From positions 9,959 through 44,412 of the forward strand of contig PBFM01000003.1 of NCBI GenBank assembly GCA_002718655.1: 34,454 nucleotides of DNA, in the 5' to 3' direction. Within the stretch, counting starts at the first letter, position 1; the number at the start of each line of letters is the position of its first letter. The translations under genes and the position numbers were made by a program. The notes below the pieces were generated by a model. It was not told the DNA's origin. It was given only the letters and a program-made list of their open reading frames with translations, and searched no databases. Origin of the DNA: Fidelibacterota bacterium (GTDB lineage Bacteria; Fidelibacterota; Marinisomatia; Marinisomatales; UBA1611). Shown in pieces: positions 9,012-34,454 of this stretch.

Positions 9012-10670
9012 TTATTTTAAGTATGTTATTTTTTTGAGTGTTTGGGATATTCCATCATTTAATCTGATAAAGTATATACCACTTGGAAGAGAGGCTGGTT
9101 CCCACATTAAATGAATCGAACCTTTTTCTATCTTGTTTTGGTAAATGGTTTCAATGTGGCTACCATTATATGAAAAAATATCAATTTTCAATTTTCTACT
9201 CGCTTTAGCCATTACTTGAATATTGATTATAGGATTAAATGGATTTGGATATGTCCTCATTAGGTTAAATTCTACGGGTTGGGTGTTATATTCATAGCCT
9301 ATGTTTGATTCAGTAAAATAAGACAGCGCATCTAATGTATTTACAATTCCATAACCATAAGTATTATTTGCACTGTCTGCCATAGAAGCAGTCATCATAA
9401 TAGATTCTCTGACTTCCATTGCAGACCAATTTGGCCTTGCTTGTAATATTAATGCTGCAGCTCCTGCAACAAGAGGGCAAGAAAGTGAAGTACCACTAAG
9501 CTGTGTATAACTCGTTGTACTATTTGGGTTAACACACCATGTTTGCCTTCCTCTAGCACATACCTCAGGTTTTATTCGCCCATCAGCAGTTGGTCCGTGA
9601 GAACTAAAACTAGCAATTTCTCCACTTTCTGAAACAGCACCTACCGCTATGACAGAATCAGCATCAGCTGGTGCAATAATATAATACCAATCATCATTCC
9701 CTGAATTCCCAGCTGCAGTCACACAAACAATACCAAGCCCCACTGCTATATCTACAGCAATGGTAGTAACCGCTGTATTACCATCAAGGTCAGAATATTC
9801 ATACCAATCTAAATACCCCAGAGAAGTTGATACAACATCAGCACCGTTCTCTTCTCCCCATTCCAAACCAGCAACATAATTATCTTCTTCCTGTTGTATT
9901 TCCTGTGTTACATCTTCAGTTTTAGCTAAAAGAAACTCAGCATCATATGCAACACCCATAAGTTCACCAGGTGAGCTTGCAGCAATTGTTGATAATACTG
10001 CAGTACCGTGAAAATCTTGACTAGCTGTTTCCTCTTGATCATTCTCATTTGCAGTTTGATTATCATCGTTTATGAAATCCCACTGAGCTATAACATTAAT
10101 ACTATTGAAAGCATTATGGCCAAGGTCAAAGCCAGTATCCATCACTAGTATTCTAACACCCTGTCCTGTAAAACCCAGCTCGTGTATTAAATGCACATTT
10201 ATTTGTTCTATCTGTTCTTGGGCATATCCATAATCAACGTGAACTGTGTTTGAATTATTTTCATTATATTGATCATAATAGTTTTTTTTATATCCAATTA
10301 CTGGTCTAATAGAATCGACAAATTCAAATTTTGTTAAATCTTTTAAATCATTAAATGAACAAAGTACAGATACCGCATTAAGCCAGCGGCTCTCATTGAT
10401 AATATCTATTCCAATTGATGATATTTGCTCTTTATATAAATTAGAAACTGATAAATCATACCAACTTTCTTCTAATAGAAAACCGTTTTTATTTCTTCTT
10501 TCGACAGCCTTTTTATTAAGAGTAATGGGGATGGATTCATTTTTATCCTTAAAGAAAATCCATAATCTGTATTTTTCTCCTCTTTTACCGTATTTTATCT
10601 GACCAGGGTCGTATTTTTCAGAAAATATAATGTTATGAAATATTGTAAAAAGAAGTAGTAATCTTACCAT
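9012..10670 (-). CDS. S8 family (subtilisin-like) serine protease with T9SS C-terminal sorting domain
   Basis: Catalytic Asp VLVMDTG-like (ILVMDTGFD), His (DFHGTAV), oxyanion Asn (AAGNSG), Ser (GTSLSCPLVAG); C-terminal RTYPNPFNPIINIQV...LPSGIYFIRLNDG. Confidence 0.94.
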   Translation of the reverse strand: MVRLLLLFTIFHNIIFSEKYDPGQIKYGKRGEKYRLWIFFKDKNESIPITLNKKAVERRNKNGFLLEESWYDLSVSNLYKEQISSIGIDIINESRWLNAVSVLCSFNDLKDLTKFEFVDSIRPVIGYKKNYYDQYNENNSNTVHVDYGYAQEQIEQINVHLIHELGFTGQGVRILVMDTGFDLGHNAFNSINVIAQWDFINDDNQTANENDQEETASQDFHGTAVLSTIAASSPGELMGVAYDAEFLLAKTEDVTQEIQQEEDNYVAGLEWGEENGADVVSTSLGYLDWYEYSDLDGNTAVTTIAVDIAVGLGIVCVTAAGNSGNDDWYYIIAPADADSVIAVGAVSESGEIASFSSHGPTADGRIKPEVCARGRQTWCVNPNSTTSYTQLSGTSLSCPLVAGAAALILQARPNWSAMEVRESIMMTASMADSANNTYGYGIVNTLDALSYFTESNIGYEYNTQPVEFNLMRTYPNPFNPIINIQVMAKASRKLKIDIFSYNGSHIETIYQNKIEKGSIHLMWEPASLPSGIYFIRLNDGISQTLKKITYLK

Positions 10671-12913
10671 TCGATACCTAATATAATATTTGAGATACCA
10701 ATTAAATCCATAACATCTATTTGTCCACTTCTATCAATATCGCAAAAAAATAATTGAGATTCAGTTGGCTCATTACCAAGAAAAATAATATCCACAATTG
10801 CAAGCAAATCATAAATGTCAACATGAAGATCTTGGTTAAAATCACCCATTAGACCAATGGCAAAACCCGAGATTGAAAAGTCGTCAAATGTAAACCCATC
10901 ACCTTCAACAAAATTATCTGATGTTTGAATAAAACGAAACCCAGTTATGGTTTCACCGATAAGTTGGTCAATATAAATGGTTTCTTCAATCCAATTTTCT
11001 TGATTACCATCATAGCCATGTTGCCCAAAAGGTTGTGCTGGTTGCCCAGACCCTAAGCCCGTGTAATTTCCTTCTAGACTAACCCATCCAGAATCTAACA
11101 CATATGCCTGAAATCGAACAAAATCCCAACCTTCTTCTATTTCCCATTTAGCTTTATACTCAATGACTGGATATAAAATATAATTAAAATTTATTTCATA
11201 GGTTAGTTCAGCGATTGACTCAAAAGCTTCTTGGTAATCCCCATTAGGACTATCAGTTAGAGCCAGTGAGTCAGTGGGAGCATCATCTGTCAAACCCCAA
11301 TCACCATTAACTGACCAGTTAACTAAACCATTTTCGAATCCATCAAAAAAAAACATTTCTCTTTGACCGATTACAAAATTTATAGTGTCTGTTCTTGAGT
11401 AAGAAAAATCATTTTGTAATGAAATAACTATCCCGGAGTGGCTACCATAATCTGCATTCTCAGAAACACTGATAGTAATAGAGAACTCATCTTGGTCTCT
11501 TGCATCAATTTCACTCATTTCATAAGAATCAATATTAATTCCTATTATATCATTTAATGCATTTAAACTAACGTCTATATCCCCATTTGAATTTTGCAAG
11601 CCTCTATTTTGAATTACAATCTCAATTTCAACTGAATCTCCTGGTAAAATATCTTCTTCTGAAAATTGATAGGAGTGCACTATAATATCTGGCCCAGAAA
11701 CAAAAGAAAATATTTTATTTGGGTAAAACTGATTAGAGCATAAATCAACAATTTCATCTTCAGACGGCCAAAAACCTTGGGATGGAGAACCCACTTCCGG
11801 TACATAGGATATGATATTTTGATCTCCAAATGTCCAATCAACGGCATCACCGTTTACAGTATAACCAATAGTTGATAAACCGGTCCCAACTACATAACCA
11901 TTATATCTTGCCATTTCTTCACCAATCTCTCTCAAAGTAGTTAAATCAGGCTCTTCTGGCAATGATCCATCTCCCCAAGGATGGATGTAAATATTTGAAA
12001 AAGTATGATAATGCAAGACATTCATAAAATCATACTCAATAATAAAATCACGTACTACTTGTGTTTCTAACTCAGAAAAAGAAGATTCACCCCTATATGT
12101 GGCAGAACATGGATTTGGTGATGAACCAGTGTTATCCGAACCCCAGCCATATCCATAATTTCTATTTAGATCAACACCACGACCAGTACCATCTCCACAA
12201 TTAGTATCTAATCTATTTTTTCTATGCATACCTCCACCATCAGGTTCTATCTCTTCATTATAAACATAACCATCTGGATTAACTACAGGAATAAACCACA
12301 TTTCACGATTGTTTATTAAATATTCTAGCTCTGCATCAGTCTCATATTCTTCAGCTAATTTTTGAACAAAATAAAATAAACTCATCATTCCAACAGGCTC
12401 TCTAGCATGGGTAAGTGCAGTAAACAATACTGCTGGCTCGTCTTCTTCAACATTCGGATTATCAGATACTTTGAATGCCCATATATCCCGCTCCTCAATT
12501 GTTTGCCCAATTATGATTCGGTTTGAGATAATTTCAGGGTATAACATATGAAGTTCATCAAATCTATTATTTAACTCATCAAAAGTATAGTTACCTTGCA
12601 TAGATCCAAGTGGAAAATCACGATCAATTCCATATTGATTTCTAGATTTATAATGCATTGTTAAATCTTCAACTAAAATATCTAAAGCTATATCTCTCGA
12701 TAACAATTCAATTGTTTGATCAGTTGTAACTACAAGATCAATAAACACGTCTTTTTTGCCATTTATGTGGTCAAGGGGTATTCCTAACTGTCCTATTGTC
12801 TGAATTATTTGGTTTGTTGGGGAATATACCCTTATTGATTGAAACACTTCACTTCCATTAATAATATTGTGAAAAAGTAAGATAAGATAACAGAAAAGAT
12901 AAATGTTTTTCAT
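10664..12913 (-). CDS. M14 family zinc carboxypeptidase with CARDB-like, MAM/jelly-roll-like and C-terminal dockerin-like domains
   Basis: ALTHAREPVG (HxxE), GVDLNRNYGYGWG, VLHYHTFSNIYIHPWG, YVPEVGSPSQGFWP; signal peptide MKNIYLFCYLILLFHNIING; C-terminal GDFNQDLHVDIYDLLAIVDIIF and CDIDRSGQIDVMDLIGISNIIL are dockerin-type Ca2+ loops. Confidence 0.92.
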   Translation of the reverse strand: MKNIYLFCYLILLFHNIINGSEVFQSIRVYSPTNQIIQTIGQLGIPLDHINGKKDVFIDLVVTTDQTIELLSRDIALDILVEDLTMHYKSRNQYGIDRDFPLGSMQGNYTFDELNNRFDELHMLYPEIISNRIIIGQTIEERDIWAFKVSDNPNVEEDEPAVLFTALTHAREPVGMMSLFYFVQKLAEEYETDAELEYLINNREMWFIPVVNPDGYVYNEEIEPDGGGMHRKNRLDTNCGDGTGRGVDLNRNYGYGWGSDNTGSSPNPCSATYRGESSFSELETQVVRDFIIEYDFMNVLHYHTFSNIYIHPWGDGSLPEEPDLTTLREIGEEMARYNGYVVGTGLSTIGYTVNGDAVDWTFGDQNIISYVPEVGSPSQGFWPSEDEIVDLCSNQFYPNKIFSFVSGPDIIVHSYQFSEEDILPGDSVEIEIVIQNRGLQNSNGDIDVSLNALNDIIGINIDSYEMSEIDARDQDEFSITISVSENADYGSHSGIVISLQNDFSYSRTDTINFVIGQREMFFFDGFENGLVNWSVNGDWGLTDDAPTDSLALTDSPNGDYQEAFESIAELTYEINFNYILYPVIEYKAKWEIEEGWDFVRFQAYVLDSGWVSLEGNYTGLGSGQPAQPFGQHGYDGNQENWIEETIYIDQLIGETITGFRFIQTSDNFVEGDGFTFDDFSISGFAIGLMGDFNQDLHVDIYDLLAIVDIIFLGNEPTESQLFFCDIDRSGQIDVMDLIGISNIILGIEW

Positions 12914-15157: not shown

Positions 15158-16177
15158 TCAGGATATTAACCTTCTTATTTTCCACTTTCTAAACCAGTTC
15201 AAAGACTTTTTCTTAAGCTTTAAACACTCACCATTATCAATTGTTTCGTTTATAGACTGAATTAAACGTTCTGATGACTTACCATCTAAATATGGATGTA
15301 TATCATTCAAAATTTCTTGTCTAGATTCAGAATATTCCTCTGGATCATTAAAAGATCTTGTAATTGCACCCGTCAAATCATCAGGGTCAGTAATGTTAAT
15401 GCCTTTTTCAAATCTAGTGGTTGTATTATATGTAATTATTGGTCTATCAAATATTAGAAATTCATAAGCAACAGATGATGTATCAGTAATCAATAGATCT
15501 GCGGCATTCAACCATAGTAAAATGTTATTATCTTCAATGATGGTGAATTTAGATGAAATCAATTCTTTATATTTTCTTATTATTTCTTTCTTTTCCAGCT
15601 CATGAAATTTTACTACCCAATGGTAGCCAAAGTCTTGAGTTTTTTTTATTGGCTCGAACAAATCTCCAGAAGATCTATACTTTGGAGAAAAAGTCGGCGC
15701 ATATAAAATCACTTTAGTGTCTGAATCTAAACTAAAGAATGTTTTTTGATCAGAAATAGATTTAAAATTGACACAATCATCTAATTTTGGCCAACCTGTT
15801 TCCTTTACTAAAAATGTATTTTTTTCTTTTTTAATTTTTTCAAATTTTTCTGTAATCAATGGTCCAGGAGTACAATAGAGGTCAAAAAAACCTGTTATTT
15901 TGTAATGTCCTTTTTTTTCTTCGCATAATCCATGGAAAATTTGAACTTTTAGACCAGGCCAAAAATCTGGAACAACATTACCAGGAACTATGATTGCATC
16001 TGGATTAAAATCAAATACTTGTTTCGATTCTCGGATTACAGTTCCTTTGATATTATTTTTTATTTTTCCTACTATAAACCAAGCAGTTTCTAAATCATTT
16101 AGAGTTTTGCAATAAGAATCAATAGGCTTTAAAATTGATAGAGAATAGGATTTTGTAACAAAAAATAATAGCTTCAC
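15158..16177 (-). CDS. CDP-glycerol glycerophosphotransferase family protein (divergent paralogue)
   Basis: IFHG, ILYAPTFSPKY, VVKFHELE, LLITDTSSVAYEFLIFDRPII, PYLDGKSSERL: TagB/TagF C-terminal family motifs. Confidence 0.8.
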   Translation of the reverse strand: MKLLFFVTKSYSLSILKPIDSYCKTLNDLETAWFIVGKIKNNIKGTVIRESKQVFDFNPDAIIVPGNVVPDFWPGLKVQIFHGLCEEKKGHYKITGFFDLYCTPGPLITEKFEKIKKEKNTFLVKETGWPKLDDCVNFKSISDQKTFFSLDSDTKVILYAPTFSPKYRSSGDLFEPIKKTQDFGYHWVVKFHELEKKEIIRKYKELISSKFTIIEDNNILLWLNAADLLITDTSSVAYEFLIFDRPIITYNTTTRFEKGINITDPDDLTGAITRSFNDPEEYSESRQEILNDIHPYLDGKSSERLIQSINETIDNGECLKLKKKSLNWFRKWKIRRLIS

Positions 16178-16220
16178 TTTAATTTTATTTTAATATTTGG
16201 TACTTGATAGATATCCCAAA

Positions 16221-17297
16221 TCAGTCTTCAAAAGCATCTATCAAGCGAGAGGAAGCTTTGCCATCTAATTTATATAAATAATGTTCAGTGGCATTTATTC
16301 TTTGAGATGACATTTCATCAATATTATCAATAGCGTAATAAACTCGGCTCAATAGCTCTGATGGATCTTTTATATGGTATGTGAAGTTTACATTAAGCAT
16401 TCTTTGATAATCAATTTTTCTAAAAAAACGATTTTTAAATATCTTATGCATAAATTTTAAAGTATAACATTGTACCTGAATAATTGGTTTATTAATTGGC
16501 AAATATTCAAACATTGTTGATGACAAATCAGTTAATAGCATATCTGACATTTTATAGTATGGAATAATATCATAGTCATAATTTTTTAGTAGATGAATAT
16601 TTTCATTTGCTTTATCTAACTCATTACAAAGAGCATTTTGATAGTAATATTTTTTCTTTTCCCAACTAAAACCGTGGAGTTTGATTATAATATTGAAATC
16701 ATTATTTAAATCAGGTAATAGAGGACATACCTTTTCAATGGATGTTGGATAGTAACTTGGGGCGTACAATATTGTTTTTTTTGATTGATCAAGGTTAATC
16801 ATATTTTTCTTTTTTTCAATTTTACCATCAGGGATGGTAAACAATCTATCAAGTTTTGTAAAGCCAGTGAGAACTAAATTATCGCAACCTGTATTTTTTA
16901 ATTTATTGTATCTTGAAACTGATTCAACTGCTCTAAGATCTATTCTGTCATGCATATCGTTATAATAGGATTGTTTTAAACCTATACCATGATATACCAT
17001 TATAGCTTTTGTACCTTTTCTTACAATTTTATTTAATTTCCCAATATTGCCAACGATAATAATATCATATTTTTCGGAAAAAATATTTTTTATGCGTTGA
17101 ACTTCGCTATTTGCAGTAATAAATCTAATATCAATATCATTACACACCTTCATCAATATGTTTTGTTCAAAACATGATGAACGTTTTGGAATTGAAACGT
17201 GAATATCATACTGATTTCTTCTTTTCAATTCTTGAACAATTGGTAGAAAGTTAGGCCAATAATAAAGATGATGAGTTTCAAATAAGACTTTTTTCAT
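16221..17297 (-). CDS. CDP-glycerol glycerophosphotransferase family protein
   Basis: MVYHGIGLKQSYYNDMHDRIDLRAVES, LTGFTKLDRLF, ILYAPSYYPTS, IIKLHGFSW, LLTDLSSTMFEYLPINKPIIQ, YKLDGKASSRL. Confidence 0.85.
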   Translation of the reverse strand: MKKVLFETHHLYYWPNFLPIVQELKRRNQYDIHVSIPKRSSCFEQNILMKVCNDIDIRFITANSEVQRIKNIFSEKYDIIIVGNIGKLNKIVRKGTKAIMVYHGIGLKQSYYNDMHDRIDLRAVESVSRYNKLKNTGCDNLVLTGFTKLDRLFTIPDGKIEKKKNMINLDQSKKTILYAPSYYPTSIEKVCPLLPDLNNDFNIIIKLHGFSWEKKKYYYQNALCNELDKANENIHLLKNYDYDIIPYYKMSDMLLTDLSSTMFEYLPINKPIIQVQCYTLKFMHKIFKNRFFRKIDYQRMLNVNFTYHIKDPSELLSRVYYAIDNIDEMSSQRINATEHYLYKLDGKASSRLIDAFED

Positions 17298-23357: not shown

Positions 23358-23672
23358 ATGGAACTTAAAGAAAAAATCATGAATGAGATAAAAGAAAATA
23401 GAATAATCCTTTATATGAAAGGCACAAAGGAAGCACCTATGTGTGGATTTTCAAACTCAGTAGTTCAAATACTTAATCACTATGGTGTAGATTATAAAGA
23501 TATTAATGTATTAGAAGACCCTATGATTAGAGTTAAACTAAGCGAATATTCTAATTGGCCAACCATTCCACAATTATTTATTAATGGAGACCTTGTTGGG
23601 GGTGCGGATATTACTATGGAATTACATCAAAATGGCTCATTACTAGACATATTAGATAAAGCAAATAATTAG
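23358..23672 (+). CDS. grxD: Grx4-family monothiol glutaredoxin
   Basis: ILYMKGTKEAPMCGFSNSVVQIL (CGFS), NWPTIPQLFINGDLVGGADI. Confidence 0.95.
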   Translation: MELKEKIMNEIKENRIILYMKGTKEAPMCGFSNSVVQILNHYGVDYKDINVLEDPMIRVKLSEYSNWPTIPQLFINGDLVGGADITMELHQNGSLLDILDKANN

Positions 23673-23756: not shown

Positions 23757-23828
23757 GGCCCGTTCGTCTAGTGGTTAGGACTCCAGGTTTTCATCCTGGC
23801 AACAGGAGTTCGATTCTCCTACGGGCTA
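23757..23828 (+). tRNA. tRNA-Glu (anticodon TTC)
   Basis: GGCCCGT TCGTCTAGTGGTTAGGACTCCAGGTTTTCATCCTGGCAACAGGAGTTCGATTCTCCT ACGGGCT A: acceptor, D, anticodon (CCAGG-TTTTCAT-CCTGG) and T arms (AGGAG-TTCGATT-CTCCT) all pair. Confidence 0.96.
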
Positions 23829-23834
23829 CATAAG

Positions 23835-23856
23835 AAACCCCCATATATGGGGGTTT
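23835..23856. terminator. Bidirectional hairpin terminator (inference) between tRNA-Glu (+) and DUF4249 gene (-)
   Basis: Perfect palindrome AAACCCCCATATATGGGGGTTT between convergent transcription units, with flanking AAA/TTT. Confidence 0.75.
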
Positions 23857-23867
23857 ACTTTTGATAT

Positions 23868-25010
23868 TTATTCTCTTACTACATTTAAAAGAAACCTATA
23901 TTCATTCGAACTATAAAACACACCTAATCCATCTTCAAAATTAGAATCAGGGAGTAGATATATGTTTTGACCTACAGGGTCACCACTAAAATAATTAAAA
24001 TATGATTCACTTGTCGCTTTGAATGTCATTAATTGTAAACCGTAGTAGTCAAAATAAAGCCACATTATTGGCGTAGGTGCCTCCTCAATGTTCCACTGCC
24101 AAGGATTAATTCTGTAAGGTATGTTATTTGTTAATCTTGGATACTGCCCTTTCCATATCCTAAAGCCCAATGTTGTATCATATATTAGATTTACTAAAAC
24201 ACTGTCCCTAATTCCATTAAAATTGTAATCAAAAAATCCACCACTATCAGGGTCTAAAATTGAACTCAATGTATCAAGAGGCTCAAGGCCAATTTTATTA
24301 GCTTCAAGTGCATAAGTTAGTATTTTTATAGTTTCATAGTTTTCTGAATCAAAATCGACCCCAAACATTGGATAACTAGCAAAACTTTTTGTATAACATT
24401 CACCGAATCTGTACACTACCGAGTCAACGTTAATATTATTTTCTGATACATAATTTATTGGGTTAGCATAAAGTTGCATTAATTCTGCAAATGAAAGATT
24501 TTCAAGATTTTTTATATCTATGCTATCGACAGGTAAGACTGTACCATCCGGGCACACATATTGACCCAAATCAGCAGATCGCATATTCATTTCAGTTGGG
24601 ACAGTAGTAGTAGCAATAACTGAATCTCCCATTTCACTTATCACCACTAGTTTATAAGTTGATCCAGGCCTGATGACAAAATTCAAGTATTTATCATAAG
24701 TTTGAATTCCTGAAGTATCTGTAATTGGGAAATATCTTCCTGATCCTAAATTGTAGTATCTTAATATGCTTCCAGTTGAATCATCAATTAGTTTAACATC
24801 AGCATTATTTATCCATAATTGGCTAGCATTAATATCCTCATTTATTTCGGCAGTTTTTGAAACTAAAACAGTGTCAATAACTGGCAAATTTGCAGATATT
24901 GATCCAAAGACCACCAAGCGCTCTTCATATGATTTTTCACTATCTTCAAAGCTGCAAGATTGAAATAGAAGTGAACATAAAACTATTATTTGTAAAAATT
25001 TCTGATTCAT
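23868..25010 (-). CDS. DUF4249 domain-containing lipoprotein (TonB-receptor partner)
   Basis: MNQKFLQIIVLCSLLFQSCSFEDSEKSYEERLVVFGSISANLPVIDTVLVSKTAEI...WINNADVKLID: lipobox FQSC and DUF4249-like N-terminus, directly downstream of the TonB receptor. Start trimmed from 25025 to the Met preceding the signal peptide. Confidence 0.82.
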   Translation of the reverse strand: MNQKFLQIIVLCSLLFQSCSFEDSEKSYEERLVVFGSISANLPVIDTVLVSKTAEINEDINASQLWINNADVKLIDDSTGSILRYYNLGSGRYFPITDTSGIQTYDKYLNFVIRPGSTYKLVVISEMGDSVIATTTVPTEMNMRSADLGQYVCPDGTVLPVDSIDIKNLENLSFAELMQLYANPINYVSENNINVDSVVYRFGECYTKSFASYPMFGVDFDSENYETIKILTYALEANKIGLEPLDTLSSILDPDSGGFFDYNFNGIRDSVLVNLIYDTTLGFRIWKGQYPRLTNNIPYRINPWQWNIEEAPTPIMWLYFDYYGLQLMTFKATSESYFNYFSGDPVGQNIYLLPDSNFEDGLGVFYSSNEYRFLLNVVRE

Positions 25011-25012
25011 AT

Positions 25013-27358
25013 CTAAAACTCCCATGTAAAACCGATTGTAGGTATGATAGGGAACAGACTTAAACTTCTTTCCCGGATGCGACCTTCATCAGGCTCATCA
25101 ACATTTGTTTCACCAGGGTCAGCTCTTCCATTGTTATTTTCATCGTGAAGTTCTATATCCCAGTCATCATCATCATCGATACCGTTGTAAGTATTTCCTA
25201 AGCTATAAACCTTTCGGAATGTGTTTTTTCTATTCATCGTATTGATTATTTGAAAGAAAAAATCAACATTTGTTTTACCTATTTTCGCATGATAAACTGC
25301 TCCAAGGTCAATACGACTATATGGTTCGTAGCGACCAGAATTTCTGGTTCCAGGAATTGTTCTAAAAACCTCTTCAGGACTTTCTGGAAATCTTTGGATA
25401 TAATAACCTAGAATTGGTGTATACGCTTGCCCAGATTGTAAAGCCCACCTCCAATTCAGTTCCCATTTATCATTGACCTGGTAGTTACCTAAAAAACTAA
25501 ATGCGTGAGTTCTATCCCAATTGGTATAATATTCTTCAACGCTTTCATTAAATATGCTTTGCATTGATTTTCTAGATACTGAAAATGTATATGCTAGCCA
25601 ACCACTTAGATTGCCCGTCATTTTTTGAGCAAATAGTTCAAGACCATATGCGTAACCATCGGAGGGAGTAAGTATATCAGATAGCATATCTGAAGAAACA
25701 TTAGCATCAGTTGATGACCTTTTCTCTTCATATGTTAAAAGATTTTTTAACTCCTTATAATAACCTTCAACTTGAATCTTATATTTATTAATATATTCCT
25801 CATATCCTAGTACTAATTGGGTAGATTTTCCTGGTGCAACAGATTCATCAGCCGCTATCCAATTATCTAGTATCGCCGGATTAAAATCATCCTGAAAGGT
25901 ACTTATGAATTGATGGTAATTACCCATTGATATGTTTAGATATCTGTCATCTGTTAGTAAATACTTTATGCCAAGTCTTATATCTGGATAAATTGAGTCA
26001 GGAAATACATCATAATAGTTTACCCTTACACCTGGCTCAATAATTAACCTGTTACCAAAATCAAATTTGGTTTTTGCATAGGTTCCCATTTCGACTGGAG
26101 ATGTTTTAATTTCAAAATTGGTTGAATCTTGGAATTTATTAATGTATTCAAAACCAAGTATTTTGTATTGAATTCCAAATTTGATTGTTGATTCGGAAGA
26201 TCTAAACCATGAAAAATCTCCAGATATTGTTTGATCATCAATTAGGTTATCACTTACTAAACCTCCGTCTCCCCCTAAACCAAATCGGGTAAAAAACTTA
26301 CTATTTGCAATGAGAAAATTCCCAACAAGTCTTTCGCTAAATAATCTTCTATAATGGAGGCTGATAGTATTATTACCCCACCGGCCATCTAGACCAAATG
26401 TGTCAAATAAGATATCGTCAATTCCTGAATAATAGCTTAATGAAAGTCTATCTTTTGGGCTTAAATCTGAGAAAACATGACCTTGAACATCATAGAAATA
26501 ATATGGAGGAATGCTTGAAGCAACATCTTCAGGTAAAACCTTTGGTAACACCAAATCAAAATATGTTCTTCGTCCACTAAGGACCCAAGCCCCCTTGTAA
26601 AAAGGACCTTCAAGGGTTGTTTGTGCAGATAATAGTGAAATATTCGCCTTACCCTTAAATTCTTTTCTATTTCCTTCCCTGCTTATTACATTCAATACCG
26701 CTGAAAGCCTTCCACCATATTCTGCGTTGTAAGCACCTTTTATAAGCTCTGCCTCTTTAATACCATCCACTATGAAATTTGAAAAGACACCTCCGAGATG
26801 TGATGGGTTATATACCGTTATCCCATCAAGCATTATAAGGTTCTGGTCTGTATTACCTCCTCTTATTATTAACCCAGTGCTATATTCTGAAGTGGTTAGT
26901 ACTCCAGGTAGTGCCTGTATGGTTCTGAATAAATCAGGCTCAGCAAGAGCGGGAGCAGATTTCATCATCCTTGGACTAAGGTTGATTTTACTTGGTTGAA
27001 TATTATTCCTCCTCTGAATTTTTTCAGCTGTTACTTCAACCTGGTTTAATTCTACAACTTCTTCTTTTAGAGATATATCTAGTTTTATTGATTGCGAAGG
27101 AGCAATATCAATAGAACTTCTACGTACTGAAAAACCAACATAGGAAACCATAATTGTATAGCTACCAGGCGTAATGTCTTGGATTACGTAGTAACCATTA
27201 AGGTCTGTGGCCATTCCCTTTCCAGTTTCTTGTACAATCACATTTGCACCGATTAAAGCTTCTCCAGATGAGGAATCGCTAACGAAACCAGAGATAATAC
27301 CGTTTTGAGCACTAACGAGCGAAAATATGATTATTGATGAATAGGTTATAATTCTCAT
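25013..27358 (-). CDS. TonB-dependent receptor with N-terminal carboxypeptidase-regulatory-like domain
   Basis: GIISGFVSDSSSGEALIGANVIVQETGKGMATDLNGYYVIQDITPGSYTI; plug LIIRGGNTDQNLIMLDGITVYNPSHLGG...YGGRLSAVLNV; C-terminal aromatic residue (TWEF). Confidence 0.93.
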   Translation of the reverse strand: MRIITYSSIIIFSLVSAQNGIISGFVSDSSSGEALIGANVIVQETGKGMATDLNGYYVIQDITPGSYTIMVSYVGFSVRRSSIDIAPSQSIKLDISLKEEVVELNQVEVTAEKIQRRNNIQPSKINLSPRMMKSAPALAEPDLFRTIQALPGVLTTSEYSTGLIIRGGNTDQNLIMLDGITVYNPSHLGGVFSNFIVDGIKEAELIKGAYNAEYGGRLSAVLNVISREGNRKEFKGKANISLLSAQTTLEGPFYKGAWVLSGRRTYFDLVLPKVLPEDVASSIPPYYFYDVQGHVFSDLSPKDRLSLSYYSGIDDILFDTFGLDGRWGNNTISLHYRRLFSERLVGNFLIANSKFFTRFGLGGDGGLVSDNLIDDQTISGDFSWFRSSESTIKFGIQYKILGFEYINKFQDSTNFEIKTSPVEMGTYAKTKFDFGNRLIIEPGVRVNYYDVFPDSIYPDIRLGIKYLLTDDRYLNISMGNYHQFISTFQDDFNPAILDNWIAADESVAPGKSTQLVLGYEEYINKYKIQVEGYYKELKNLLTYEEKRSSTDANVSSDMLSDILTPSDGYAYGLELFAQKMTGNLSGWLAYTFSVSRKSMQSIFNESVEEYYTNWDRTHAFSFLGNYQVNDKWELNWRWALQSGQAYTPILGYYIQRFPESPEEVFRTIPGTRNSGRYEPYSRIDLGAVYHAKIGKTNVDFFFQIINTMNRKNTFRKVYSLGNTYNGIDDDDDWDIELHDENNNGRADPGETNVDEPDEGRIRERSLSLFPIIPTIGFTWEF

Positions 27359-27360
27359 AA

Positions 27361-28317
27361 TTAATCCGATAGGTAATTTAAGTTTTCATTATTAAAGATG
27401 ATTGGTTCTATGCCATACCTTTTGAAGAGCTCAGATGAATCACAAACGCTGCCATTTACCAAATCATCAAGTTGATCTTTTCCAGCTGGAAACCATTTAA
27501 ATCTATCTAATAACCCAGCAATAAAAGAAATTAGAAAGATTGGTGCGGGTACCATAATCACACGTCTTTTAGTTACTTCTGCAATAGTTTTGATTATTTT
27601 ATTCCAACTCACTTCATCCTTACCCCCAACTTCCAATGTCTCACCTATGGCTTTATCATCTTTTAAAACATTTAAAATGATAGAGGCAACATCTTTTACA
27701 TGAACCATGGACAAACTATAATTACCAGCATCAAATGGACTTATCCCTTTAAAAAATGAAGGTGCGGGGAATGGTAAAAATTTTGGATATGGTAGGAGAC
27801 TTAACATTAATTTATCAAGCATCATACAAAATTCAGGTCTTTCATTGCCCCTTGGATTACCAAATAATGATGATGGACGAATAATAGTCCAATCAAGATT
27901 TGTATTTTTAATTGATTGCTCTGAAAGGTACTTAGCCTGCATATATTTAGAACCATTTGGATTAGGATTTGCACCTAATGCACTCATGAGGATAAATCTT
28001 TTGATACCATTTTTTTCTGCCAGACGCATTACCCTTTTTGAACCCTCAAACTGGAATCTTTCATTAGTAATGTTTTCAGAAGGGAATTCACGAATAAGCG
28101 CTATTAAATAAATAGCCGAATCACATCCTTTTAAAGTTTCATTAATTGAATTTTCATCTTCTATGTTTCCATATATAATTTCACATTTGTTTGGTTGTAT
28201 AACCTTGTCATCAGACCCTTCCCGTACCATGACGCGGGGAATCATACCATCAGATATAATGGAATCTATTATGTAAGACCCGGCGTAACCAGTGCCACCA
28301 AAAATAGCTACTTTCAT
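27361..28317 (-). CDS. NAD(P)H-binding SDR (complex I NDUFA9-like / atypical SDR)
   Basis: MKVAIFGGTGYAGSYIIDSI, YLIALIRE, FILMSALGANPNPNGSKYMQAKYLSEQSIKNTNLDWTIIRPSSLFG, MVHVKDVA. Confidence 0.87.
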   Translation of the reverse strand: MKVAIFGGTGYAGSYIIDSIISDGMIPRVMVREGSDDKVIQPNKCEIIYGNIEDENSINETLKGCDSAIYLIALIREFPSENITNERFQFEGSKRVMRLAEKNGIKRFILMSALGANPNPNGSKYMQAKYLSEQSIKNTNLDWTIIRPSSLFGNPRGNERPEFCMMLDKLMLSLLPYPKFLPFPAPSFFKGISPFDAGNYSLSMVHVKDVASIILNVLKDDKAIGETLEVGGKDEVSWNKIIKTIAEVTKRRVIMVPAPIFLISFIAGLLDRFKWFPAGKDQLDDLVNGSVCDSSELFKRYGIEPIIFNNENLNYLSD

Positions 28318-31300
28318 TAGTTTTGCTCCGTTTTTAAGATATATTTTTCTATGGTTAAATAAGAAACAGGAATCAAAAGAAGCGTAATACCAGTTGCAAA
28401 AATAACACCAAAAGCTAATGAAACAGCCATTGGAATCATAAACTGGGCCTGAGTACTTTTTTCCAATATTAGTGGAATTAACCCAACAAAAGTTGTCAGA
28501 GAAGTTAAAAAGATTGGACGAAATCTCCTTGGACCAGCTTCTAGAACTGCATCTTTTATAGAGTACCCTTCTCTTCGATAACGATTAATAAAATCAACCA
28601 TTACGAGGCTGTCATTTACTACAACTCCAGTTAATGCTACAATCCCCATAAGGGATAAAACAGAAAAGTTCATCCCTAATAGTAAATGACCAAGCAAAGC
28701 TCCTGTTAGTCCAAATGGAATCGATGACATAATAATCAAAGGTTGAAAGTAAGATTTGAATGGTATAGCGAGTAACATATAGACCACAATCATTGCTAAA
28801 ATAAAATTTTTACCTATTGATTTTAAGTTGTCAGCCTGTTCTTGCTGCTCACCTTCAAAATCATAAGAAAGCGAGCTATACTTTTGAAGCAGTTGTGGTA
28901 ATAATGAAGTAGTTATGGAGGCAATAACTTCATTACCAGTTGTCATTGACAAATCAACGTCTGCAGTGATGTTTATTGATCGCTTACGATCTTTTCGCTG
29001 AATAGATGCAAGCCCCTGTCCAATCTCTAAGCGAGCAATTTGCCTTACAGGAATTGTGAAACCACTAGGTGTGCTAATCATCATTTTTTCTAAATCAGAA
29101 ATGGATTTCCTATCATCTTCAGGGTATCGCACCACTACTTTTATTTCGTCTCTTCCTCGCTGGATACTTTGAACTTCTAGACCATAGAAGGCTTGCCTAA
29201 CCTGCGTTGCAACCATCATCATTGTAACTCCGTAATTTTTGGCTGCAGGAAGCAATTCTATATTTATCTCTTCCTTACCTAAATTGTAATTATCTTTTAC
29301 ATCAAAGACTCCAGGATATTGATTCAATTTAGCTTTCAATTCATCTTTGGCTGTTAATAGATCTTCTATATATTTACTTGATAATTGGATGTTAATTGGA
29401 TCTCCAGCAGAAAATAGACTTGAAAAAAATAATACATCTTTTGCACCTGGAATTACTGGCATTAGCTTTCTCCATCGCCTCACCACTTCTTCTGTGCTAA
29501 TCAATCTATCCTCGCCTGGCACTAACTCAAGGGCAACTTCTGCAACATTAGGACCTGCATAGAGGGCATTTAAATTCCCAGGCCCTCTTGAAGTCTTCGA
29601 TCTCATTGGCTGCCAACCAATAGTGGACAATCTATTTTTGATTGTCACCTCTCCATTTAGCTCTTTATTTAGGTCTTTTTCAAGTATACTTGCTGTCCTT
29701 TCAAGCTCAAGATAACCTTGGCGAGTTACATCAATAGGTGTACCGGATGGATACTCAATTGCACCAATTGCAAGATCCGCTTCAACAGCTGGGAAAAAAG
29801 TAAACTTTACTACACCTCCAGCTATTATTCCTATTGTTAAAATAAATATTCCTGCAGCAATGGATAATGAAGTAAACGGTCTGTCTATTGATTTTTTAAG
29901 AAACGGTTTATAAAAGTTAATGATTGTGTATGAAAGTCCAAAGATTAGCGTTGTTTGGAGGGATTCCCATTTTTCAGAAAGTAATCGAATGAATGCACTT
30001 TTAGGTTCTTTGTCTTTACTGTGAGCTAGGTGTGCAGGAAGAATCGTCAAACTTTCAAATAAAGACCAAAATAGCACCATTATAGTTATTAGCGGAAAGA
30101 TTCTCCATATTTCACCTATCTCACCATCAACTGAAAGCATAGGGGAAAATGTTACCATAGTTGTAAGGATTGCAAAGAATACCGGTGTCGCTACTTGCTT
30201 TGTAGCCTGGACTGCTGCTTCTTTTGGCTCAAGACCTCTTTCTCTAAAAAGTGCTACATTTTCTCCAACAACAATCGCATCATCTACTACGATACCCAAA
30301 ACTAATATAAACGTGAAAAGGGATAGCATATTTATGGAAAGATCCATCAAGGGCATAAAGAGAAAGCCTCCCATAAATGAGATGGGTATTCCAAGAGATA
30401 CCCAAAAAGCTAGTTTTGGCTTAAGAAAGAGTGCTAGTACAATAATAACTAATAGTAATCCGTAGCCCGCGTTTTTTGTCATCGTATCAATCCGACCTCT
30501 TAGAAGAAATGCCTCATCATCCCACGCTGTAACGCTGATATTGGCAGGTAGCTTTTGATTCTTTTCTTTGACGTACTTTTTTACAGACTCAGAAACATCA
30601 ATTGCGTTTTGATTACCAACTCGAAAAACTGTCAGCAAGTTTGCACTACTCCCATTAAAAAGGATGTCAAGTTCGTCAGAATCTATGAATCCATCTTTAA
30701 TGTCGCAGATGTCACCTAAATAAACAATCGAACCTCGATCATCAGTAATTATTGGTATTTGGGAAAAATCATCAATTTCATAACCTTGACTATTAGACCG
30801 TATCAATATTTCACCATCATTAGTTTTAATACTACCACTTGGAATATTTACAGACCAATTCTGAACAGCTTGAGATACTTGATAAAATGATAAGTTATAT
30901 TTTCTAAGCGTGTTTTCACTAATCTCAAGGGAAATCTCTTTATCTTTTCTAGCAACAAATTGTGTGTAAGTTATCTCAGGCAAGCCATCTATTTCATCCT
31001 TAATCTCAGCAGTAAGGTCTGATAATTCACTTTCACCCATATCACCATCAATAGCTACGGTAACAACAGGATTAGATCCAGCAAATTGTCTACATATTGG
31101 TCGCTCAACATTTTCGGGGAATGAATCAATAGCATCAATTTGAGCCTTTATCTTATCTAACATTTCATTGACATCTTGCCCAGGAATTAATTCTAAATTC
31201 ACGCTACCTACATTCTCAGATGCACTAGATGTAATTCTTTTCACTCCCTCTAACCCTTGAAGACGTTCTTCAATTTTTATGCAAATAGCGTTTTCTACAT

Positions 31301-31475
31301 CTATCGGTGATGCCCCAGGGTAAACGGCAGTCACATTAACTATATCAACAGATATTTCAGGAAAAACCTCCATTCTAAGTAATGGAACGGTTAATGCACC
31401 AGCGATAATTATGAACGCCATCATCAGATTAGCGGCTACACTATTATTCACAAACCATCTAATTAAACGTTCCAT
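28317..31475 (-). CDS. RND efflux transporter permease (AcrB/HAE family)
   Basis: 1052 aa; RWFVNNSVAANLMMAFIIIAG, VTAVYPGASPIDVENAICIKIEERLQGLEGVKRITS, GIVVDDAIVVGENV, GIVALTGVVVNDSLVMVDFINRYRREG, ILTTMVTFSPM. Confidence 0.95.
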   Translation of the reverse strand: MERLIRWFVNNSVAANLMMAFIIIAGALTVPLLRMEVFPEISVDIVNVTAVYPGASPIDVENAICIKIEERLQGLEGVKRITSSASENVGSVNLELIPGQDVNEMLDKIKAQIDAIDSFPENVERPICRQFAGSNPVVTVAIDGDMGESELSDLTAEIKDEIDGLPEITYTQFVARKDKEISLEISENTLRKYNLSFYQVSQAVQNWSVNIPSGSIKTNDGEILIRSNSQGYEIDDFSQIPIITDDRGSIVYLGDICDIKDGFIDSDELDILFNGSSANLLTVFRVGNQNAIDVSESVKKYVKEKNQKLPANISVTAWDDEAFLLRGRIDTMTKNAGYGLLLVIIVLALFLKPKLAFWVSLGIPISFMGGFLFMPLMDLSINMLSLFTFILVLGIVVDDAIVVGENVALFRERGLEPKEAAVQATKQVATPVFFAILTTMVTFSPMLSVDGEIGEIWRIFPLITIMVLFWSLFESLTILPAHLAHSKDKEPKSAFIRLLSEKWESLQTTLIFGLSYTIINFYKPFLKKSIDRPFTSLSIAAGIFILTIGIIAGGVVKFTFFPAVEADLAIGAIEYPSGTPIDVTRQGYLELERTASILEKDLNKELNGEVTIKNRLSTIGWQPMRSKTSRGPGNLNALYAGPNVAEVALELVPGEDRLISTEEVVRRWRKLMPVIPGAKDVLFFSSLFSAGDPINIQLSSKYIEDLLTAKDELKAKLNQYPGVFDVKDNYNLGKEEINIELLPAAKNYGVTMMMVATQVRQAFYGLEVQSIQRGRDEIKVVVRYPEDDRKSISDLEKMMISTPSGFTIPVRQIARLEIGQGLASIQRKDRKRSINITADVDLSMTTGNEVIASITTSLLPQLLQKYSSLSYDFEGEQQEQADNLKSIGKNFILAMIVVYMLLAIPFKSYFQPLIIMSSIPFGLTGALLGHLLLGMNFSVLSLMGIVALTGVVVNDSLVMVDFINRYRREGYSIKDAVLEAGPRRFRPIFLTSLTTFVGLIPLILEKSTQAQFMIPMAVSLAFGVIFATGITLLLIPVSYLTIEKYILKTEQN

Positions 31476-31480
31476 ATTAT

Positions 31481-32623
31481 TTAATTCAACTCAAAAGTTA
31501 CTTTTTTTCCATTAATAAGTGATGAGAGTCTTGTGATGAGCAATCTATCACCATTATTAAGACCTTCATCTATGAGCGCAAATTCATTTTCATATCTAAT
31601 TACATTGACTGGTCGATTGAAAATTGTTCTATTTGAATCAACAACCCATACGCTTCTGTCTCGAACTAAATTTCTTGGTAATACAAATATTTCATCAATT
31701 TCAATTCCGCTGATTTCAGCTTGAACAAACTGCCCTACCGTAACTAGTCTTGATTTAGTTTCTCCAATGTTATCGATTCTTGCTACTAGTGAACGCATTT
31801 TTGTTCTTGGATCGACCTCCGCCTCAGTTCTTATCACTCGACCTTGAAACTTTTCGTTTGCTAGATTAAATGTCACAGTAGGTTGTATAGATTCTGGTAT
31901 TTGTTTCCCATTAAACTCAAGTCCAATAAAAAATATATCTTGGTCTGCAACTGGCAAACGAATCTCATATATACTTGTGGAGTAAATATTACCTAACGGT
32001 GTTCCAGGAAATACGATGGTTCCTTCATCTATACTGCTATTCCTTACGCGACCAGTGAAAGGTGCTATACAAACTGTTCGACTAAGATTTCTTTTTGCTT
32101 GCTCAAGTTTTGCTTTTGCTGCTGCATACATTGCTTTTGCTTGAGCCATTTGTGGTTTCCTAAGAGTCAAACTACTCCCAGATCCTGCTCCTACTCTTTT
32201 CCATTCTATTTCTGCAAGTTCTGCTTCAGCCAATTCGCGCTCAAGATTAACCTCCGCGTTAAGAACTTGAGATTCAGCATTAATTAGAGCTAGTTCGTAA
32301 TCCCTCTTGTCCAGAATAATCAAAGTGTCACCTTTTTCAAAACTTGAACCAGGTTCCATTTTATTCGAAACCCATTCAATCCTTGAACTTAATTCTGATA
32401 GCATTGTCAATTCAGATTCAGGTTGAATGATACCTTGCGATGCAATCGTAGCATTGGTAGATATTGGGAGAATCATCATTGTTTCGACATAAGGCAGCTC
32501 TTCTTTCTTTTGTTCAGCTAATGCAACAGGTTTATTCATTATCAAAAAAGTAGAAACTACTAAACTAGAAATTATAGTAATCAATCCAATATGTTTTTTC
32601 GTTAATTGTTTTGCTTTATCCAT
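31481..32623 (-). CDS. RND efflux periplasmic adaptor subunit (membrane fusion protein)
   Basis: GIIQPESELTMLSELSSRIEWVSNKMEPGSSFEKGDTLIILDKRDYELAL, coiled hairpin, CIAPFTGRVRNSSIDEGTIVFPGTPLGNIYS. Confidence 0.92.
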   Translation of the reverse strand: MDKAKQLTKKHIGLITIISSLVVSTFLIMNKPVALAEQKKEELPYVETMMILPISTNATIASQGIIQPESELTMLSELSSRIEWVSNKMEPGSSFEKGDTLIILDKRDYELALINAESQVLNAEVNLERELAEAELAEIEWKRVGAGSGSSLTLRKPQMAQAKAMYAAAKAKLEQAKRNLSRTVCIAPFTGRVRNSSIDEGTIVFPGTPLGNIYSTSIYEIRLPVADQDIFFIGLEFNGKQIPESIQPTVTFNLANEKFQGRVIRTEAEVDPRTKMRSLVARIDNIGETKSRLVTVGQFVQAEISGIEIDEIFVLPRNLVRDRSVWVVDSNRTIFNRPVNVIRYENEFALIDEGLNNGDRLLITRLSSLINGKKVTFELN

Positions 32624-34073
32624 TGTTATCTAAATCTCCTCCAAGTGCAAGTATTAATGATAAACGATTTTCGATTCGTTGTCTTTTGAGGGTTAAATAT
32701 TGAGAACGAACATTGTTGTATTGTCTCTGAGAATTGAGCACAGATTCTAAAGTTGTGACACCTTTATCATATCTCTCTTTTGATAAGTTATAAGCATCTA
32801 AAGACTGTTGAACAGCATTGTTGATAGACTCTTGTTGAATTGATAGGGATTGATTAATCTGGAGCAGTTGTTCAACTTCAGAATAAGCATTTAATAGTCC
32901 CTTCAATAAATCTTTTTTTGCTTTTTCTTTCGATGATTCTCGAAATTTGACTGCAGATTTTAATTTTCCAGAATTAAAAATGGGAGTGGCTAAATTTAAA
33001 CCTATGCTCCATATCCCATAGTCTTCATTGAAGATATCATTTAATTTTTGCGCAGAGGTACCTGCAGAACCAGATATCGAAATCCCAGGTAACCGATTAC
33101 GCTTTGCCTGCATCAGTAAAAGACCTTCAGACTCAGTTTTAAGAAATAAACTCTTTAAATCTGGCCTTCTTATTATAATGTCTGCCGGAATAGCTTTTTC
33201 AATAATCGGTAATTTATCAGGTAGCGCTTTACTAGTAATCATTTGGCCTTTGGGGTATTTCCCTAATAAAGTTTCTAAGCGACGCCTAAGAGCACTTAGT
33301 TGAATCTTTCTTGTTTCAACCAGCACTCTTGATGTTGAAACTGAAGTTTCAGCTAAACGATAATCCAAGCTAGATTTTAATCCTTTTTCATACCTGTTTT
33401 TTACCAAATCTCTTATTTCGGTATAACTATTGTATGATTCTTGGGCTATTTTCATTTGTTCATAAGCTTCAACTGTCTGAAAATAGGATTGCGCTGCTCT
33501 TATGACTGATGAGAAGCCTAGATATGTTAAATCATAATTAATCGATTCATAATTTTTACCCGCGGCTATCTTTGCGTTACTTAACCTGCCCCAAATATCA
33601 ATCTCCCATTGCAAATTAAATCCTAACCCAGCAGTACTGTTTTCGAAGCTAATAATTTCACCTGATTGACCACCAAAAATTTCTCCAGCGGCATCTCCAA
33701 ATCCTGTCAAGTTTTGCATACTAGTATCCGCACGAATACTACTATTTATAGATGGTAGAATATTTGGACTATTGATTTTAGAATTATGGTAAGCCATTTT
33801 TTTGCTTTCTAGTATTGACTGGATGTCGGGGCTATTTTTTCGAAAATTAAATATAAAGTTTTCCAAATTTTCATCCTGAAAGATTTCCCACCATTTTCCA
33901 GCAATATCCTCACTTATTGGTATTGGTATTTGCCAAACATCTGGAATTTTTAACCCTATATCATCAACAGAAACAATTGCACGGTTTGAACAACTTTTAA
34001 AAATCAAGATGCTTAGAATTAGGAATCTAAAATTCAAAAAGTTGAAAAACGATTTAATCTGTTTCACTATCAA
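32616..34073 (-). CDS. TolC-like outer membrane efflux factor (NodT family lipoprotein)
   Basis: Lipobox-like FKSC near N-terminus; LQWEIDIWGRLSNAKIAA, PADIIIRRPDLKS, GLNLATPIFNSGKLKSAV, RYDKGVTTLESVLNSQRQY. Confidence 0.93.
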   Translation of the reverse strand: MIVKQIKSFFNFLNFRFLILSILIFKSCSNRAIVSVDDIGLKIPDVWQIPIPISEDIAGKWWEIFQDENLENFIFNFRKNSPDIQSILESKKMAYHNSKINSPNILPSINSSIRADTSMQNLTGFGDAAGEIFGGQSGEIISFENSTAGLGFNLQWEIDIWGRLSNAKIAAGKNYESINYDLTYLGFSSVIRAAQSYFQTVEAYEQMKIAQESYNSYTEIRDLVKNRYEKGLKSSLDYRLAETSVSTSRVLVETRKIQLSALRRRLETLLGKYPKGQMITSKALPDKLPIIEKAIPADIIIRRPDLKSLFLKTESEGLLLMQAKRNRLPGISISGSAGTSAQKLNDIFNEDYGIWSIGLNLATPIFNSGKLKSAVKFRESSKEKAKKDLLKGLLNAYSEVEQLLQINQSLSIQQESINNAVQQSLDAYNLSKERYDKGVTTLESVLNSQRQYNNVRSQYLTLKRQRIENRLSLILALGGDLDNNG

Positions 34074-34454
34074 GGTTTGTAATTATGTTCCGTAGTACAT
34101 TTTTAAATGTATTTATTTCATCTTCTGAAATTGCTTTTCTAGCTTCTTCTCTAGTTTTTTCCATAACAGGCAAAACATCATAGAAGAGTTGCTTACCGGC
34201 ATTTGTAAGAACAATTCTTTTAATCCTATGGTCTAACTGGTCTGCAATGCGTACCACTAAATTCTTTTTTTCTAAGGCATCAATTATTCGCGTTATACTT
34301 GTCTTATCCTTTAGGCATATCTCTCCTAACTCCTTCTGCGATGCTGACTCCAGCTGCCACACGGGGCCCAAAACCATCCATTGGTCGAGTGAAATATCTA
34401 CTCCCGAATCCATTGCATTTTGGACAAATCTTTTTGTCATAGCGCGATGTGCTG
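34054..34454 (-). CDS. MarR family transcriptional regulator, N-terminus beyond window edge
   Basis: DISLDQWMVLGPVWQLESASQKELGEICLKDKTSITRIIDALEKKNLVVRIADQLDHRIKRIVLTNAGKQL: MarR winged helix. The frame stays open through the window edge (AHRA before the annotated Met), so the true start is probably outside. Confidence 0.9.
   Translation of the reverse strand, partial: AHRAMTKRFVQNAMDSGVDISLDQWMVLGPVWQLESASQKELGEICLKDKTSITRIIDALEKKNLVVRIADQLDHRIKRIVLTNAGKQLFYDVLPVMEKTREEARKAISEDEINTFKNVLRNIITNLDSETD

Follow-up and report, generated by a model that had tools for sequence, protein, structure and literature searches.

A MarR-headed operon joining RND efflux, an SDR and a TonB receptor/DUF4249 pair in Marinimicrobia, and its probable link to a photo-oxidative-stress locus

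Introduction

In Bacteroides thetaiotaomicron, the TonB receptor gene BT2172 is followed by the DUF4249 gene BT2173. The pair is kept across dozens of genera, and loss of either gene has similar consequences (PMC11003636). In Corynebacterium, an RND (resistance-nodulation-division) gene lies beside a MarR-controlled, light-induced carotenoid cluster, and carotenoid production was unaffected when this RND gene was inactivated (PMC6739363). The furan fatty acid genes of Rhodobacter sphaeroides encode the SAM methylase UfaM, the FAD/phytoene-dehydrogenase-like UfaD, and UfaO with DUF1365 (PMC7380195). A LitR region of Pseudomonas contains the photolyase PhrB, a short-chain dehydrogenase/reductase (SDR), an FAD oxidoreductase and UfaM (PMC9758184). 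Photolyases are already known in epipelagic Marinimicrobia (PMC6143742). In this study, a seven-gene operon encoding a MarR regulator, a tripartite RND pump, an SDR, a TonB-dependent receptor and a DUF4249 lipoprotein was analyzed. It lies in a stretch of 34,454 nt (the window; G000:C3:9959-44412) of a Marinimicrobia (SAR406) metagenome-assembled genome (MAG) of 2.1 Mb in 60 contigs, 80% complete. Its close relatives are Candidatus Marinimicrobia/Neomarinimicrobiota of the SAR406 group. Gene order in relatives supports well a link between this operon and a photo-oxidative-stress cluster. We place slightly better than even confidence in the reading that the operon is a MarR-controlled envelope unit and a compacted branch of that locus, working by the mechanism proposed below.

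The operon and its conservation

A preliminary description, made from the sequence of the window, had proposed the order marR, tolC-like, periplasmic adaptor (MFP), RND permease, SDR, TonB receptor and DUF4249. All seven open reading frames (ORFs) were found in place on the minus strand, and their Pfam and NCBIfam families agreed with all seven names (Table 1). The permease, adaptor and outer-membrane channel are encoded together, with PF00873, TIGR01730 and TIGR01845 all above their cut-offs. The complete marR encodes 151 aa and extends 55 nt past the window edge (ORF L021:1013-1468).

The junctions were as tight as described, with two ambiguous starts. With TTG as the start codon of tolC, marR and tolC overlap by 20 nt; a GTG slightly further inward is an alternative. 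tolC and MFP overlap by 8 nt, MFP and RND are separated by 5 nt, RND and SDR meet in TAATG, and SDR and the receptor are separated by 2 nt. The receptor and DUF4249 genes overlap by 13 nt (ATG at 25025) or are separated by 2 nt (ATG at 25010). Inside the operon, 39 promoter-like matches (46.2 ± 7.4 in shuffled sequence) and 5 terminator-like sites (5.3 ± 2.0) were found. Both counts are at chance level, and no site of either type lay at a gene junction. A promoter and terminator between SDR and the receptor had been named as signs against a single unit; neither was seen there.

The palindromic terminator described earlier is a perfect hairpin at the operon end, although it had been overlooked that the convergent tRNA-Glu ends there too. 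The terminator scan scored this hairpin on the plus strand only. Since it stands between the operon and the convergent tRNA-Glu, it is a common end of both and probably bidirectional. In relatives belonging to families f1 and f8, the corresponding position is likewise marked by the tRNA-Glu and the adjacent glutaredoxin gene.

Table 1. Genes of the operon and features at its downstream end (window positions).
Feature	Position	Strand	Evidence or remark
marR, MarR/SlyA-type regulator	34054..34454	-	PF01047, 1.9e-10; cut by the window edge
tolC-like outer-membrane channel lipoprotein	32616..34073	-	TIGR01845 (NodT family), barely above cut-off; OEP Pfam
RND periplasmic adaptor (MFP)	31481..32623	-	TIGR01730, 127.5 bits (cut-off 94.9); HlyD Pfam
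RND (HAE-type) permease	28317..31475	-	PF00873 (ACR_tran), 567 bits; MdtB is the nearest solved relative
Atypical extended SDR, NDUFA9/NmrA-like	27361..28317	-	NAD-binding Pfam
TonB-dependent receptor, N-terminal CarboxypepD_reg and Plug	25013..27358	-	Pfam
DUF4249 lipoprotein	23868..25025	-	PF14054, 4.3e-11; alternative start ATG at 25010
Perfect hairpin AAACCCCCATATATGGGGGTTT	23835..23856	.	Common end of operon (-) and tRNA-Glu (+)
tRNA-Glu(TTC)	23757..23829	+	Convergent neighbor downstream of operon, kept in f1 and f8
Glutaredoxin	23358..23672	+	Kept convergent neighbor; indicates where the receptor/DUF4249 pair stood ancestrally

Conservation of the order was investigated by tblastn and ORF maps of the relatives' loci. 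Twelve genomes from six genera (g1, g3, g4, g5, g8 and g11) of one family kept the gene order and strand, and their junctions were again overlaps or very short gaps. The full order was present in G000, G004, G005, G006, G009, G014, G015, G016, G023 and G112, and was followed as far as the contig end in G001 and G002. A partial copy was present in a seventh genus (G007, g6). The order is thus not peculiar to the genome of the window, the outcome that would have spoken against the proposal. Its conservation goes far beyond chance, as judged from these loci, and together with the junctions it indicates that the seven genes are one real, conserved MarR-headed operon.

In the order-wide searches of 121 genomes, the receptor/DUF4249 pair was commoner than the pump. 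It was present in 60 of the 68 Marinimicrobia-type records fetched (L071-L138), and six of the other eight stop at a contig end. The existence of the pair without the pump in many relatives means that the modules are separable and that a common substrate is not required; by its distribution, the seven-gene unit combines such modules. The operon might be a set of inherited neighbors, in which a locus compacted from a larger cluster put a general MarR-controlled pump and an unrelated importer on one transcript. The receptor and DUF4249 genes stay beside the tRNA-Glu and glutaredoxin genes with or without the pump. The RND-SDR and SDR-receptor gaps, closed in the clade of the window, are about 90–570 nt or more elsewhere and sometimes hold a gene called c13 or an AhpC-like gene. 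Against mere neighborhood, the order is kept with overlaps or tiny gaps in six genera, and the pump recurs beside SDR/receptor or LitR-like genes in at least three families. Selection for joint expression is therefore suggested, and simple inheritance is a possible but doubtful explanation.

Some copies departed from this pattern. One MAG contained two SDR-receptor-DUF4249 copies (G023:C4 and G023:C65). By identity, the second is closer to genus g10 and is possibly a contaminant or a transferred copy. In G034, the receptor beside the pump has only 320 aa (L035:11747-12709, = L134), and a full-length relative lies on G034:C60; the short form is a decayed or mis-assembled copy. Genomes of family f15 (0.7–1.0 Mb, same taxonomic order) had an RND permease of about 41% identity, but the receptor had no close relative there.

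Probable link to a photo-oxidative-stress cluster

In lineages beyond the compact clade, c13 and a gene for a MerR-type protein with B12-binding domains commonly stood before the SDR gene. Most of these MerR proteins retained the CarH-like signatures W...EEH and D-x-H in the alignment. They are called CarH/LitR-like here (LitR in the gene orders below). The c13 protein (L039:6268-6771, L065:8576-9055 and others) is a START/polyketide-cyclase-like protein of about 160 aa, with a Pfam score just below the cut-off. Many Marinimicrobia couple c13 to the SDR gene, whereas the operon of the window lacks it.

The co-directional cluster included a photolyase (TIGR00591, above cut-off), a DPRP photolyase-related protein, glutathione peroxidase (GPx), SOUL and DUF1295 proteins, a fatty-acid desaturase, two CFA-type methyltransferases (CFA and CFA2), DUF1365, an FAD oxidoreductase (FADox), a lipocalin and peroxidases. 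In family f8, G101 (L152) had the order FADox-DUF1365-CFA-CFA2-DUF1295-SOUL-SDR2-photolyases-LitR-MarR-TolC-MFP-RND-c13-SDR, and G094 had LitR-MarR-TolC-MFP-RND-c13-SDR with receptor-DUF4249 downstream. LitR-photolyase-MarR-TolC-MFP-RND was found in two genomes of f1 (genus g10); G098 has the DUF1365 block upstream of it, and G020 has SDR-receptor-DUF4249 downstream. A third genome of f1, the family of the window, carried DUF1295-SOUL-MarR-TolC-MFP-RND-LitR-c13-SDR-c11-receptor-DUF4249 (G022, L039). In family f7, the order was LitR-SDR-...-CFA-CFA2-TolC-MFP-RND-GPx-PlsC-receptor-DUF4249 in G075 (L067/L068), and CFA2-TolC-MFP-RND-GPx-...-PlsC-...-receptor-DUF4249 was common to G030 and G075. 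In both, LitR and SDR shared this strand and lay about 10 kb upstream, and there was no MarR gene at TolC. In 15 records, the LitR-like gene, SDR and receptor had a common strand and spanned no more than about 22 kb.

The resemblance of these genes, among them UfaD-, UfaO- and UfaM-like ones, to the Rhodobacter and Pseudomonas gene sets indicates that the Marinimicrobia cluster is of the light/photo-oxidative kind. Its enzymes may make furan fatty acids, as suggested by domains and gene order, the level at which they were compared with the Rhodobacter proteins. In the clade of the window, the LitR/DUF1365 block was a separate locus (G005, G112, G004, G015 and G023). LitR follows this block in G005, G112 and G004. 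In the genome of the window, contig C4 ends before the expected position, so the missing LitR in this assembly is uninformative.

The co-occurrence of pump and DUF1365 was examined in the 121 genomes with a pump ortholog threshold of >50% identity and Fisher tests, in which shared ancestry is only partly corrected. The pump was present in 18 of 20 genomes with DUF1365 and in 10 of 101 without it (p = 1.6e-12 by genome). The association was also obtained by genus (p = 1.4e-4), within f1 (p = 5e-4) and outside f1 (p = 2.6e-6). It speaks for the link to the photo-oxidative-stress cluster and is also one of the observations that fit a role in lipid placement, in which pump and receptor would shuttle modified lipids (of the furan or cyclopropane type) or products of their breakdown between the inner and outer membranes. 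The pump genes directly follow CFA2 in G030, G069 and G075, and lipocalin, PlsC and the START-like c13 are cluster members. That role is nevertheless very improbable, given the 10 genomes with the pump and no detected DUF1365 and the multidrug pumps that are the closest solved relatives of this pump.

The wider cluster also bears on the small-molecule operon of the preliminary description. One MarR-headed unit was indeed found; the view of it as standing alone was incomplete, as relatives make it most likely a compacted part of a larger photo-oxidative-stress locus. Uptake of a carrier and export of a product or toxic moiety had been suggested. In such a carrier cycle, the receptor and DUF4249 would import, for example, a metallophore or a vitamin for processing by the SDR, and what the pump exports would be the emptied carrier or its toxic part. 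The closed junctions that join importer, oxidoreductase and exporter genes in six genera would suit such a cycle. However, no siderophore, metallophore, metal, cobalamin or biosynthesis genes were recognized nearby and no riboswitch was found, the pump and receptor are separable in relatives, and the cluster concerns light and lipid damage rather than metals. A carrier cycle is compatible with the data, which neither support nor refute it, and is considered unlikely.

Probable regulation by MarR

A palindrome was found upstream of marR in the great majority of relatives, and the form TAGTTG-N6-CAACTA was present in relatives from three families. Exact copies stood at marR or tolC starts in G002, G009, G016, G020, G034, G022, G112, G101 and G094, and matches containing N in G005 and G006. 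No exact copy occurred elsewhere in 0.90 Mb of fetched loci. Five shuffles gave no exact palindrome, and 5.6 per pass when up to one mismatch was allowed. In the genome of the window, TAGTTACATATGCAACTA (C3:44488-44505, one mismatch) lies just upstream of marR, 75 nt past the window edge. The palindrome is thus a strong candidate for the MarR operator, with good evidence from its position and recurrence. This genome contained 12 further one-mismatch sites, against six in a backwards control, so no MarR regulon is claimed in it.

OhrR regulators sense peroxide through a reactive N-terminal Cys. OhrR-type sensing was rejected for this MarR protein, which has no N-terminal Cys; its sole Cys is in the DNA-binding region (EICLKDKTS), with two residues unread (N).

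Proposed role of the operon

The most likely, parsimonious reading is that the operon of the window is a compacted descendant of the cluster. In the proposed mechanism, a MarR dimer would repress its own operon and be released by an amphipathic compound from light or oxidative stress, such as an oxidized lipid fragment, a quinone or a photosensitizer. The RND-MFP-TolC pump would expel this compound, and the SDR would reduce it, or a related carbonyl, using NAD(P)H. The receptor and the DUF4249 surface lipoprotein may import a molecule that serves the same response. In other arrangements, the CarH-like regulator directly upstream would probably add light control; in the clade of the window, where that regulator has a locus of its own, MarR would be the local switch. 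A further and rather improbable step is a light-stress in-and-out circuit tied to furan-fatty-acid membrane protection. In it, the receptor and DUF4249 would import a protective or repair molecule, while the SDR and pump, from the same transcript, would reduce and expel a photo-oxidized product.

Several observations weigh against a compacted photo-oxidative-stress branch. The receptor/DUF4249 pair occurs without the pump or LitR in many relatives. The name CarH/LitR-like was chosen because the NCBIfam CarH model gave 59.5 bits against an equivalog cut-off of 400. The operon itself has no physical linkage with the LitR/furan-fatty-acid cluster, which is on contig C4 (L155). The direction of rearrangement is a reading of gene order, and the substrate role is a prediction from the genes. 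The MarR-type palindrome was not found at the LitR/DUF1365 cluster, which gives no indication of a shared MarR regulon. Upstream of the cluster genes, the search for a common LitR-type palindrome gave only the MarR palindrome and AT-rich noise. With neither signal shared, co-regulation remains putative. The pump also occurs without DUF1365 in 10 genomes, though MAGs are incomplete, and this incompleteness and shared ancestry limit the co-occurrence p values.

Clusters in which a DUF4249/TonB branch and an RND pump accompany photolyases, furan-fatty-acid genes and a light regulator of the B12 type place both in a concrete, testable physiological context. Photo-oxidative defense, with DNA repair and lipid modification, may extend to outer-membrane transport in an abundant uncultured ocean phylum. 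The candidate operator makes the regulation testable in vitro. If true, the in-and-out circuit would be the first physiological role for this DUF4249/TonB branch and this RND branch.

Features of the SDR, receptor and DUF4249 proteins

The best solved-structure match of the SDR was NDUFA9 of complex I (7zm7_E, 1.2e-20), followed by more NDUFA9 chains. This likeness, as a sequence match, does not imply a role in complex I. The active site of the SDR is intact, and the protein is probably an active enzyme, because S112, Y125 and K129 were invariant in 17 aligned relatives.

The receptor C-terminus has a conserved acidic EF-hand-like loop, D-x-N-x-N-G-x-x-D-x-G-E. DUF4249 has an invariant D-x-N-x-N with a suitably spaced D that is almost invariant (alignment A3), and both loops look like calcium loops. 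The lipobox Cys of DUF4249 was invariant. Searches of DUF4249 against the PDB gave no match by sequence, and none at E<0.001 with its AlphaFold model (pLDDT 76), whose top hits were generic beta-sandwiches with low TM-scores. The structure model of the receptor, predicted from 18 sequences, had a pLDDT of 64 and left the plug region unresolved. Cobalamin uptake, suggested by the need of CarH for B12, was rejected: there was no cobalamin riboswitch, and the TonB-B12 match was weak, at plug level and far short of its cut-off (27 of 600 bits). A second full-length receptor of the same kind, with 36% identity, is encoded at G000:C59:12228-14525 (L044). Receptors of the L044 type occur in many relatives, on the contig of the operon in G005 and G015.

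Elsewhere in the window, a subtilase whose sorting tail is of the Por secretion (type IX) kind adjoins a zinc carboxypeptidase (9012-12913, minus strand). Two adjacent CDP-glycerol glycerophosphotransferase-like genes lie in a low-GC stretch (15158-17297, minus strand), one gene away from an ABC exporter.

Comparison with known systems

MarR-controlled RND operons such as MexR-MexAB-OprM share with this operon the MarR regulator, the adaptor, the HAE-type permease, the channel and a palindrome at the regulator (general background, in part also PMC6739363). In contrast to MexR-MexAB-OprM, the channel gene comes first here, and the SDR, TonB receptor and DUF4249 genes follow the permease. The permease, adaptor and channel of the tripartite RND efflux class are all present, and drug or toxin export is predicted.

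The sister lineages of the window's clade combine LitR-like, photolyase, SDR, FAD oxidoreductase and UfaO(DUF1365)/UfaM-like genes, in likeness to the LitR/PplR light-response regions of Pseudomonas and the ChrR/RpoE furan-fatty-acid genes of Rhodobacter (RSP1087-1091 and ufaM). Beyond these, the Marinimicrobia clusters contain the RND unit, in most cases with MarR, and the receptor/DUF4249 pair, which form a separate locus in the clade of the window. No LitR/CarH cluster linked with TonB receptors and RND pumps was found in the literature searched.

The SusC/SusD (RagA/RagB) systems likewise have a TonB receptor with CarboxypepD_reg and a partner lipoprotein. SusC/SusD membership was rejected, as the SusC/RagA model gave 66.5 bits against a cut-off of 368 and the partner is DUF4249, not a SusD-family protein. 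A receptor gene with a Plug domain directly before a DUF4249 gene on the same strand is the BT2172/BT2173 kind of pair. DUF4249 was named by only one of the 5.39 million papers searched, and no known substrate was found. The joint working of BT2172/BT2173 is known from mutants and is putative for the present pair. Unlike BT2172/BT2173, this pair shares its operon with a marR gene, an SDR gene and the genes of a tripartite RND pump, a link undescribed in the literature found. The receptor-DUF4249 pair is therefore of an already known kind; new within the literature searched is that it occurs together with RND efflux in a light-stress locus.

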